Shown: positions 2,642 to 6,220 of the stretch, piece by piece
Layout of the letters: each line of letters starts with the position of its first letter
Position numbering within the stretch: the stretch's first letter is position 1
Origin: Deltaproteobacteria bacterium RIFOXYA12_FULL_61_11
Lineage (GTDB): Bacteria; Bdellovibrionota_F; JAHFAK01; YA12-FULL-61-11
NCBI GenBank assembly: GCA_001799195.1
Contig: MGSU01000180.1
Coordinates: forward strand, 1 to 6,220
DNA length: 6,220 bases
Direction of reading: 5' to 3'
The notes under the pieces: model-generated
Told to the model about the DNA's origin: nothing
The model's database searches: none
What the model saw: only the letters and a program-made list of their open reading frames with translations
Made by a program: the position numbers and the translations under genes

Positions 2642-3727
2642 ATGGCCGGAACGATAACCCATCTCAGCTCCAACTCCGCGGAACTGGGCGAATTCGCTGA
2701 GCGGATCCTGGGTCTCCACGGCGCCGAGGTCGAACCCGTACCGGGAGGCAGCAAGGTCCTGCTGCCCACGGACCTTGCTCGGCGTCTCGAGGTACCGGAG
2801 TGGTTCGCGTTGCGCTGGGAGGATCACGATCCCACGGCGTCCGACCTCGAGCCGAGCGTACGCCTACACCTCGGTTCTGCCTTGCTCGAACGACTCTTCG
2901 CCCTGAACCAGGAACGGCCGGTCCTGGTCGGCGCGACCGCGCGCGTCGGCTACCTCAAACAGAGCGGCTTCGATCGACTCCTCGGCGAGACCTTCCACTT
3001 CCCCGAGGCTCGGATCGCCTCCCTCCATCCGGCCGCGACCACGGCGCGCTACCTGTGGCTGGGGTGCCGCTATGTGGCCACCAGTGACGAACAGCGTGAG
3101 GGCTTGTTCCGGGTCTTCCTCGGCCTGGACGGAGCCCTCTTCACCGAGGAGGACCAGCGACGGGCACTCTTCGCCATCGACCTCGAGTACAAGAAGCCCG
3201 CTCTCGGTGGTATGGAGATCGAGGCCATCCTGCCGCTGCTCGAACCAAGGCTCCGACCGATAGTGGAACGCCATGTCGCGACCTTCCGCGAACAGATGGA
3301 ACGGCGCCTCCTCCGCGACCTCGCCGGCCTTCGCGACTATTACCGACGCACTCATCGAGACATGCAGGCCGGTCTCGGCCGATCCACGCTCAATGCCGAA
3401 CTCCAGGCGACCAGACAGCAGAAGCTCGCCTCGCTGCCTTCCGACTTCGCCAACAAGCGTCAGGACCTCTTGAAGAAATACACCCTTACGGTGACCATGC
3501 GCTGCTGTGCCGCCTTGGTCCTCGACCTACCGGTGGTCAAAGTCGCGGTCGCCCTACAACGAGGCCGTGAGAACCTCAAGCAGGAACTGACCTACCAACC
3601 ATTGCTCAAAGGCTTCGAGCCCCTGCGCTGCCGCGCTTGCGGCACGGCGACCACCGTGATCGCCCATTGCCGGCAAGGCCATCTGCTTTGTCCTTCCTGC
3701 CGGCCGACGGCCCCATGTTGCCATTAG
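2642..3727 (+). CDS. Uncharacterised helicase-partner protein with C-terminal zinc-ribbon-like module
   Basis: A 361-aa protein with no signal peptide or membrane segment, so probably cytoplasmic. Residues 1-60 look like a small alpha/beta region, 60-190 a mixed globular region, and about 200-280 a long charged helical stretch rich in Arg, Glu and Gln that may form a coiled coil. The C-terminus has a likely zinc site: C330-x2-C333, C343-x3-H347, C350-x2-C353, followed by a terminal Cys-Cys-His (359-361). It lies 24 bp after the helicase stop, in the same frame, so co-transcription and a shared task are likely. The general plan recalls YqhG, encoded beside the SNF2 protein YqhH in Bacillus, but this protein is longer and I could not align them. 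No clear Shine-Dalgarno precedes ATG 2642, so translational coupling is possible. A role in nucleic-acid binding or in loading the helicase is inference only. The gene ends in three consecutive in-frame stops. Confidence 0.8.
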   Translation: MAGTITHLSSNSAELGEFAERILGLHGAEVEPVPGGSKVLLPTDLARRLEVPEWFALRWEDHDPTASDLEPSVRLHLGSALLERLFALNQERPVLVGATARVGYLKQSGFDRLLGETFHFPEARIASLHPAATTARYLWLGCRYVATSDEQREGLFRVFLGLDGALFTEEDQRRALFAIDLEYKKPALGGMEIEAILPLLEPRLRPIVERHVATFREQMERRLLRDLAGLRDYYRRTHRDMQAGLGRSTLNAELQATRQQKLASLPSDFANKRQDLLKKYTLTVTMRCCAALVLDLPVVKVAVALQRGRENLKQELTYQPLLKGFEPLRCRACGTATTVIAHCRQGHLLCPSCRPTAPCCH

Positions 3728-3863: not shown

Positions 3864-4763
3864 ATGAAGAGAATGCCCTATCTGAGTATCCTCGTCCTCC
3901 TGTTTGGTTGTCTCGAGAACGCCGAGACCTCGACCACGACCGAGACAACCCCCACTGCCGAGACCGAAGAGACAAATCCCCCCCTCGGGAAGGCACCCGC
4001 AACCCCGGAACTCCAAGCGGACGATCCAACCCAGCCTGACCAAAAAACTGAGGATACGAGCGACGACTCCTCGCCAACCGACCCTTCCCCCGTGCAAATG
4101 GCCAACCCCGCAGCGGTCAAGTGCGCCGAGGACGGGGGCGACAGCCGCACGGTCGAGACCGAGGCCGGGCAGTACAGCATATGCATCTTCGTCGACGACA
4201 GCGAGTGCGAGGAGTGGGCCTACTTCCGGGGCGAGTGCAACAAGGGAGATTGCGAGCACTGGGAGACCTGCGACCTCTCGTCCGACCCCGGCGAGGATCA
4301 AGACCCTAGCAATGACCAAGACCCTGGCGAGGACCAAGACCCCAGCGATGATCATGGTTTCACCGGCATGGCCAACCCGGCCGCGGTCAAGTGCATAGAG
4401 GACGGCTTGCAGCACGACATCCGAACCGAGGACGACGGAGGCCAGTACGGCGTCTGCATCTTCGAAGACGAGAGCGAATGCGGTAGCTGGGCCTACTTCC
4501 GCGACGAGTGCAACAAGGGCGACTGCGAGGCTTGGGAAACCTGTGACCTCAATCCCAACGCCGAGCCCCCTCTCATCGGCATGGCCAATCCCGCCGCGGT
4601 CAAATGCTCCGAGGACGGGGTCGACAGCCGCACGGTCGAGACCGAGGCCGGGCAGCACGGCATCTGCATCTTCGAAGACGGCAGCGAGTGCGAGGAGTGG
4701 GCCTACTTCCGGGGCGAGTGCGAACCAGGAGACTGCGAGAACTGGGAAACCTGCGAGGAGTAA
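3864..4763 (+). CDS. Predicted lipoprotein with three DUF333-type six-Cys domains
   Basis: A 299-aa predicted secreted lipoprotein. A short signal peptide MKRMPYLSILVLLFG ends at the lipobox cysteine C16 (Leu-Phe-Gly-Cys; Phe at -2 is slightly atypical). Residue +2 is not Asp, so under the E. coli rule it would go to the outer membrane. Residues 17-78 are a Thr/Glu/Asp/Pro-rich disordered linker. Three homologous domains follow at 79-137, 169-228 and 240-299, each starting MANPAAVKC and containing WAYFR(G/D)EC, which matches the DUF333 family seen in E. coli YoaF. Each carries six cysteines at equivalent places (copy 1: C87, C107, C115, C125, C130, C136), enough for three disulfides. The last part, GDCExWETC, lies beyond the DUF333 core as I know it. 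An acidic hexapeptide repeat links copies 1 and 2. DUF333 has no established function, so none is assigned. The gene 272 bp downstream is a paralogue. Confidence 0.88.
   Translation: MKRMPYLSILVLLFGCLENAETSTTTETTPTAETEETNPPLGKAPATPELQADDPTQPDQKTEDTSDDSSPTDPSPVQMANPAAVKCAEDGGDSRTVETEAGQYSICIFVDDSECEEWAYFRGECNKGDCEHWETCDLSSDPGEDQDPSNDQDPGEDQDPSDDHGFTGMANPAAVKCIEDGLQHDIRTEDDGGQYGVCIFEDESECGSWAYFRDECNKGDCEAWETCDLNPNAEPPLIGMANPAAVKCSEDGVDSRTVETEAGQHGICIFEDGSECEEWAYFRGECEPGDCENWETCEE
4098..4760 (+). repeat. Three coding repeats of the DUF333-type domain
   Basis: Copies lie at 4098-4274, 4368-4547 and 4581-4760. Copies 1 and 3 differ at about 20 of 177 bases by hand count, including an identical run of about 34 bases inside the domain. 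Copy 2 is clearly more diverged from both. The two outer copies are therefore the most recent duplicates or have been homogenised by gene conversion. Confidence 0.85.
4284..4355 (+). repeat. Acidic hexapeptide tandem repeat (18-bp unit x4)
   Basis: Four 18-bp units encode DPGEDQ, DPSNDQ, DPGEDQ and DPSDDH (residues 141-164), an alternating A-B-A-B pattern that suggests duplication of a 36-bp pair. It forms a highly acidic flexible spacer between DUF333 copies 1 and 2. Asp-rich repeats can bind Ca2+, but the spacing here does not match a known Ca-binding loop that I can name. Confidence 0.8.
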
Positions 4764-5035: not shown

Positions 5036-5785
5036 ATGTTCCGGACAGTGATCCTCATGATGTTCCTCGCCACGACACTGAGTTGCACCTCGGAAAAATC
5101 TGATGAGAAGGCCACGACCGCCGCAGACGACCAAACTGCGAAGCAATCCCAGGAGAGCGCGGACGATCAGGCGGCCGACTCGAGCGCCTCACGGCAAGCC
5201 GCCATGGCCAACCCTGCCTCGGTCAAGTGCGAAGAAGACGGCTACACCCTGGAAAACCGCACCCTGAAGGCTTTCTTCCTCGTAGAGGTCGAAGAAGAGA
5301 GCGCCGACGAACCCATGCTCGGAGCCACGCTCGAGGCTGAGCCGGTCCTGGGCAGCACCCTCGAGGAAGAACCGGTGCTCGGAGCCACGCTCGAAGACGA
5401 ACCGGTGCTGACAACTCTCAGCGAGGAAGAACCCGTGCTCGGACAAGATGCGGCGACTTCCGGCGGTAGCTACGCGGTGTGCAAGTTCAAGGACGGCACC
5501 GAGTGCGACGAGTGGGCTTACTACCGCGGTGAGTGCAAACCCGGCGACTGCGAGGTCTGGGAAGAGTGCTCCCTCAATCCGCTGGTCGGCGGTGGAACCC
5601 AGTTGGCGAACCCGGCGGCCGAGAAGTGCAAGGCGGACGGTCTGAACAGCGAAGCCCGGACCAACGAAGCCGGCGCCTACTCGGTCTGCATCTTCGACGA
5701 CGGCAGCGAGTGCGACGAATGGGCCTACTTCCGCGGCGAATGCAAGAAGGGCGACTGCGAGGTTTGGGAAACCTGCGGAAAGTGA
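5036..5785 (+). CDS. Predicted lipoprotein with two DUF333-type domains, one split by a decapeptide repeat
   Basis: A 249-aa paralogue of the preceding lipoprotein. ATG 5036 is chosen for its GGAGGTG site and the signal peptide it gives: MFRTVILMMFLATTLS then C17 (lipobox Thr-Leu-Ser-Cys, Thr at -3 being atypical). Residues 18-56 are an Asp/Ser/Gln/Ala-rich linker. Domain A begins MANPASVKC (57-65), then is interrupted after about residue 76 by some 66 residues holding five acidic decapeptides (91-137), and resumes at GGSYAVC (143-149) through C178. Domain B spans 190-249. Both keep the six cysteines (A: C65, C149, C157, C167, C172, C178; B: C198, C218, C226, C236, C241, C247), so domain A probably folds with the repeat as a looped-out insert. 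Known for the family: DUF333 occurs in bacterial envelope lipoproteins such as YoaF, function unknown. Location on the envelope is inferred. The gene is convergent with the AIM24-like gene, with 35 bp between stops. Confidence 0.87.
   Translation: MFRTVILMMFLATTLSCTSEKSDEKATTAADDQTAKQSQESADDQAADSSASRQAAMANPASVKCEEDGYTLENRTLKAFFLVEVEEESADEPMLGATLEAEPVLGSTLEEEPVLGATLEDEPVLTTLSEEEPVLGQDAATSGGSYAVCKFKDGTECDEWAYYRGECKPGDCEVWEECSLNPLVGGGTQLANPAAEKCKADGLNSEARTNEAGAYSVCIFDDGSECDEWAYFRGECKKGDCEVWETCGK
5306..5446 (+). repeat. 30-bp coding tandem repeat (acidic decapeptide, 4.7 units)
   Basis: Units start at 5306, 5336, 5366, 5396 and 5426 (the last partial). They encode DEPMLGATLE, AEPVLGSTLE, EEPVLGATLE, DEPVLTTLSE and EEPVLGQ, with consensus x-E-P-V-L-G-(A/S)-T-L-E. 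The array sits inside a DUF333-type domain. Such arrays commonly vary in copy number by slippage or recombination. Confidence 0.88.
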
Positions 5786-5820: not shown

Positions 5821-6220
5821 TCATCGGCTGAACACATCAAACAACCTGCCGAGAGTATTGGCCGAACCGGCGTCGGGACCGGCCTTGCCGCCCGCGGGCC
5901 GGATATACGGCGCGAGGGCCCGGGCCAGTCCGGTTACCGGCATGGACTGCAGGAAGATCCTCCCAGGGCCGGTGAGCGCGGCCAGGAACAAGCCCTCCCC
6001 GCCGAACAGAACGTTCTTGATCCCCCGCACCAGGCGGATGTCGTACTCCACGGTCGGGTCAAAGGCGGCGACGTGCCCGGTGTCGACCAGCACGGTCTCG
6101 CCCTTCTGCAGGTCCCGCTCGACCAACTCGCCGCACACCTCGAGGAAGGCCGTCCCCGGGCCGGTCAGGCGTTGCAGGACAAAGCCCTCGCCGCCGAAGA
6201 GACCGGCACCGAGGCATTTG
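5821..6220 (-). CDS. AIM24-family (TIGR00266-like) protein, partial, 5' end outside window
   Basis: The last 132 residues of a - strand gene; the frame is open through the window edge at 6220, so the start is missing. The GTG at 6138 is internal and not the start, because homologous sequence continues upstream (KCLGAGLFGGEGF, 6219-6181). The fragment shows two related segments, LFGGEGFVLQRLTGPGTAFL and LFGGEGLFLAALTGPGRIFL, about 65 residues apart, each with the Gly-rich GGEG turn and LTGPG motif typical of the bacterial AIM24/TIGR00266 family (trp RNA-binding attenuator-like beta fold). Between them lies DTGHVAAFDPTVEYDI, also characteristic. The C-terminal 20 residues are a Gly/Ala/Ser tail ending in LGRLFDVFSR. 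The family has no firmly known bacterial function. No signal peptide or membrane segment is visible in this part. Confidence 0.88.
   Translation of the reverse strand, partial: KCLGAGLFGGEGFVLQRLTGPGTAFLEVCGELVERDLQKGETVLVDTGHVAAFDPTVEYDIRLVRGIKNVLFGGEGLFLAALTGPGRIFLQSMPVTGLARALAPYIRPAGGKAGPDAGSANTLGRLFDVFSR

Follow-up and report, generated by a model that had tools for sequence, protein, structure and literature searches.

A degenerate acidic decapeptide array interrupts a DUF333 domain in a predicted bacterial lipoprotein

The DUF333 domain is widespread and, to our knowledge, has no known function. Lipoproteins 1 and 2, tandem paralogues encoded in the 6,220 nucleotide stretch of DNA analysed here (the window), both score far above the cut-off for this family (PF03891), and resemble members such as the E. 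coli lipoprotein YoaF in the NPA(S/A)xxC start, the C-x(F) element, the DGxxC/E-x-x-W motif and a putative lipoprotein anchor. However, the first DUF333 domain of lipoprotein 2 (domain A) departs from this pattern by a net gain of 63–64 residues in the β1–β2 hairpin, the net figure arising because the insert replaces a turn of 2–3 residues. The DUF333 domains of the window have six cysteines, whereas most of their Chloroflexota relatives have four.

Two other kinds of system bear comparison with the insert, much of which is a decapeptide array. The intragenic minisatellites of microbial surface proteins (reviewed in PMC3899988) likewise consist of in-frame units longer than 10 nt within genes for exported proteins, but the array described here is of low purity and old divergence, is situated inside the hairpin of a folded domain, and lacks the highly similar tandem units seen in variable minisatellite surface proteins. 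Acidic low-complexity regions of prokaryotic proteins, with proposed roles that include cation binding and solubility (PMC6821194), are similar in being acidic, low in complexity and, as is probable for the insert, disordered, although the insert repeats regularly every ten residues, has hydrophobic VLG/TL positions and sits in a disulphide-rich module.

Interruption of domain A

Lipoprotein 2 (249 aa; 5036–5785, + strand, as are all features of both lipoproteins) matches DUF333 with E=1.8e-28, and this is the sole Pfam family above cut-off (99 bits against a cut-off of 25, in three stretches); no Pfam repeat family matches within the insert. From the N-terminus the protein comprises a signal peptide with a lipobox-like TLSC, an acidic linker, domain A and domain B. 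By eye the N-terminus reads MFRTVILMMFLATTLSC followed by T, and suggests export and lipid anchoring, TLSC being an imperfect match to the usual lipobox consensus.

Domain A is an interrupted DUF333 domain, in which MANPASVKCEEDGYTLENRT is followed by 66 residues and then by GGSYAVCKFKDGTECDEWAYYRGECKPGDCEVWEEC. Its N-terminal part (5204–5263), delimited by alignment A1 and by secondary structure from AlphaFold2, contains MANPASVKC with the first cysteine (Cys1, C65), a helix and strand β1 (T71–T76). The insert (L77–S142; 5264–5461) comes next, and the C-terminal part (5462–5569) runs from strand β2 with Cys2 (C149) through Cys6 (C178). When domain A alone is searched with the DUF333 profile only this C-terminal half is matched (profile positions 22–47, 38.2 bits). 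All six cysteines are nevertheless retained, and in the motif NPA...C, C, ECxxW, C domain A keeps every position seen in the other rows of alignment A1. Domain B (5600–5785) has no insert by Pfam, by cysteine spacing and by AlphaFold2.

The interruption shows in the distance between Cys1 and Cys2, which is 83 residues in domain A, as against 19–24 in 117 of the other 119 distinct DUF333 domains, drawn from Chloroflexota, archaea, Patescibacteria, other metagenome bins and viral contigs; this range is the usual one for an uninterrupted, continuous domain of 45–50 residues, although Pfam does not define the family by it. Of the two exceptions, one (L187) is an error of pattern parsing in a domain that lacks the W, with a true spacing of 20, and the other was read as 8; a papain fusion in an archaeal bin (L132), also a candidate outlier in the pattern survey, proved to be a parsing error as well. 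The sister domains, namely domain B (spacing 19) and all three in lipoprotein 1, have spacings of 19–20 and no insert, and share 35–38 of approximately 56 core residues with domain A. The insertion is real, unusual for the DUF333 family and in frame, and it is derived in domain A because the other domains, including these four paralogues, do not have it. Such insert-free relatives with the same flanking residues had been set in advance as a confirming test, and are found both among the paralogues and among the surveyed domains.

In genome-wide profile searches no other domain matches only from profile position 22 onwards. When the viral contigs were searched with the alignment, ten weak relatives of DUF333 came up, of which seven could be parsed, all seven lacking an insert; the whole of lipoprotein 2 matches nothing among the plasmids, phages and viral contigs. 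Close relatives of this organism's genes are scarce among the genomes searched, in which two (G000 and G001) represent the phylum. Only the genome of the window has DUF333, G001 having none, and no orthologue with another repeat number was found.

The AlphaFold2 model was run on alignment A1 (23 sequences; model residue n corresponds to protein residue n+48). Strands at 71–76 and 145–150 directly border the insert, and the model of domain B joins the corresponding strands through a turn of two residues; the array therefore replaces a tight β-hairpin turn. The insert is predicted to be a disordered loop at the β1–β2 turn with the domain core intact, block pLDDT being approximately 86–95 in the core and 45–66 in the insert, where a low value can also mean 'not predicted'; the composition of the insert likewise points to disorder. 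The DUF333 model has neither a sequence nor a fold match in the PDB (best VIA Z 2.9), though this does not establish that the fold is new.

These observations agree with the original prediction that a repeat array lies within the domain and not in a linker, that about 66 residues separate C65 from the remainder with all six cysteines intact, and, as far as the model goes, that the array forms an exposed loop. The position of the split was only partly anticipated: the first cysteine does lie N-terminal of the insert, but so do the helix and strand 1 (TLENRT). The range of 5207–5572 given there needs a slight correction, as the domain extends from about 5204 to 5569. The insert marks the β1–β2 turn as a permissive site and helps to delimit the functional face of DUF333, as the turn can vary freely whereas the motif on the opposite side (ECDEWAYFRGEC) is conserved.

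The decapeptide array and a related tract

The insert consists of a lead of about 15 non-repeat residues (LKAFFLVEVEEESAD; 5264–5308), 46 residues of repeat and a brief exit segment. The repeat residues form 4.6 units of 30 bp each (5309–5446) with the consensus EPVLGATLEE, which read in order EPMLGATLEA, EPVLGSTLEE, EPVLGATLED, EPVLTTLSEE and EPVLG(Q). Tandem Repeats Finder, which takes no account of reading frame, reports a 30-bp array at 5309–5410 and a 60-bp array at 5309–5443, with 74% matches. At an offset of 10 residues the insert matches itself at 24 positions, compared with a maximum of 19 in 20,000 shuffles. Together with the five residues that follow it the insert has a net charge of -17, and its GC3 of 0.70 is close to that of the neighbouring coding DNA.

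The units have diverged considerably at the DNA level. Pairwise identity is 16–25 of 30 nt among units 1–4 and 12–18 of 30 when these are compared with the fifth, which is decayed (40–83% overall); exact repeats reach at most 19 nt. Codon differences among units 1, 2 and 3 are synonymous in 13 cases and nonsynonymous in 7; pooled over all units pS is 0.55 and pN 0.22, giving a pN/pS of 0.39 that is a rough figure, as the units are few and the pairs not independent. Because synonymous divergence exceeds nonsynonymous and the units are themselves diverged, the array looks old and its peptide somewhat constrained. The suggestion in the original prediction that the array is variable is not supported: units so diverged would not be expected to behave as a young array prone to slippage, and the differences among units 1–3 are mostly synonymous.

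A search of the organism's own genome with the insert returned one further weak match (E = 0.005; C87:8796–8906), which lies in an orphan lipoprotein of 710 aa without a Pfam domain above cut-off (G000:C87:7851–9983; L083/L089). This protein differs from lipoprotein 2 in lacking DUF333 and in having only two units, and searches of 97 other genomes found no relative of it. It holds a FLTQDEVSEDEPLLGSDLEDDPLLG tract similar to the insert, the insert aligning as FLVEVEEESADEPMLGATLEAEPVLG with FLTQ-DEVSEDEPLLGSDLEDDPLLG of the orphan protein. The Smith-Waterman score is 79 against a maximum of 69 in 2,000 shuffles of the insert, and the DNA alignment scores 23 against a maximum of 19 in 1,000 shuffles. 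We regard the link as suggestive only, since acidic low-complexity composition inflates similarity scores, and we give no weight to a match obtained with a consensus query (E = 8e-4), which is biased because the query was built in part from the C87 tract. A common origin of the two tracts is possible; alternatively, exported proteins encoded by a GC-rich genome may have converged on acidic low-complexity sequence. If the link is true, one acidic repeat would be spreading among exported proteins.

The C87 lipoprotein, with its EPLLGSDLEDDPLLG tract, also has a different acidic decapeptide array, of about four copies of DLSDDYTYDY, situated between cysteine pairs. Lipoprotein 1 carries an 18-bp acidic repeat (DQDPxx; 4291–4351, by Tandem Repeats Finder) between its domains 1 and 2, which is distinct from the decapeptide array and sits in a true linker. 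With the insert, acidic in-frame repeats therefore occur in at least three predicted exported proteins, in a survey that combined searches with a sample of stretches amounting to approximately 0.41 Mb. No other credible EPxLG tract came to light in the genome with a degenerate DNA pattern. The candidates set aside were an EPVLGSVLD on C166, a coincidence in an ORF resembling a cytoplasmic enzyme; an EPxLG match on C151, also a coincidence, in a short ORF that is probably no gene; matches on C199 and C287 that look like chance; and a decapeptide-like array on C14 that probably arises from reading an ALPAS-type repeat on the opposite strand.

Origin and possible role of the loop

The explanation we favour, with moderate confidence, is that the insert is a flexible acidic loop accessory to the DUF333 core, which grew by unit duplication and is now old and constrained. 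In this model lipoprotein 2 would be a secreted, lipid-anchored protein with two small disulphide-rich DUF333 modules, each a helix with a β-hairpin, and in-frame duplication of the 30 bp coding for EPVLGATLEE would have built, in place of the tight β1–β2 turn of module A, an acidic flexible loop of 66 residues. That turn would be a permissive point, so that the core could still fold with its six cysteines, as motif conservation and the structure prediction suggest. An array that looks old, and whose peptide seems to be under constraint, probably has some modest use: as an extended polyanionic loop at the surface of the cell it may serve as a spacer, aid solubility, or bind cations or a partner weakly. 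The related tract on C87 suggests a recurrence of acidic EPxLG stretches among the organism's exported proteins, which could reflect either a common ancestral sequence or convergence.

A less probable alternative is that the loop is merely harmless, a chance duplication tolerated at the tip of a hairpin and nearly neutral. Domain A is the sole carrier among approximately 120 domains, with no orthologue to show that the insert is conserved, and acidic low-complexity stretches are found in other exported proteins of the genome, all of which would suit such a passenger; the preponderance of synonymous differences among units 1–3 and the pooled pN/pS suggest constraint instead. Rather unlikely, in our estimation, is a repeat with a specific ligand or partner, for instance a divalent-cation or docking loop held in common with the C87 lipoprotein. 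An FL-acidic-EPxLGxxLExxPxLG tract, alike in protein and DNA, is indeed present in two unrelated lipoproteins, but these are the only two occurrences in a genome that is 87% complete, and Pfam gives no hit to a known repeat family. Slightly more doubtful again is an extension of this idea, whereby the acidic EPxLGxxLE module would be a lineage-specific functional tag in the loops of unrelated lipoproteins, multiplying by unit duplication and recruiting a shared envelope partner or cation.

We consider it improbable that the array is a contingency locus, changing copy number quickly to alter an exposed epitope or phage receptor, notwithstanding its in-frame 30-bp units and their place in a predicted exposed loop of a lipoprotein. 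The low DNA identity of the units and the short length of the longest exact repeat argue against this, and repeat number probably does not change quickly; that the protein has no relative among the phages, plasmids and viral contigs also counts against it, while saying little about a decoy role. Least likely of all is that the array came to lie in the gene through an artefact of assembly or sequencing. The sequence comes from a single draft metagenome assembly and the window ends at a short N run in the contig, but there is no disruption of reading frame, codon-position GC, the six cysteines or either flank, and the divergence of the units excludes misassembly of identical repeats. Listed from the most likely, the readings run from an accessory polyanionic loop, through a neutral passenger, to a docking or cation-binding loop, with a fast-varying decoy unlikely.

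Lipoprotein 1 and other genes of the window

Lipoprotein 1 (299 aa; 3864–4763) has a standard LFGC lipobox and three DUF333 domains (Pfam matches at 4095–4235, 4365–4505 and 4578–4718). Its domains 1 and 3 (within 4098–4756) are 89% identical in DNA and therefore derive from a recent duplication. Elsewhere DUF333 is fused to a papain-family protease (Peptidase_C1; L132, 1652–3142) in the archaeal bin mentioned above, and to a chagasin-type peptidase inhibitor (I42) in Chloroflexota (L072, 1390–2007; L075, 1387–2004). These fusions hint that DUF333 is connected with cysteine proteases in some lineages and may be a clue to its function, though they say nothing direct about lipoprotein 2.

Upstream of the lipoproteins the window encodes an SNF2/RapA-like helicase (140–2617), with best matches to DrmD, BrxHI and DpdE that fall far below the NCBIfam cut-offs. 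It is followed by a protein of no known family with a C-terminal, paired-cysteine, zinc-ribbon-like end (2642–3727), and the two are possibly a two-gene unit. Downstream, on the opposite strand (5821–6219), is an AIM24-family gene that continues in L088, the full frame having paired CxxC motifs towards its N-terminus.
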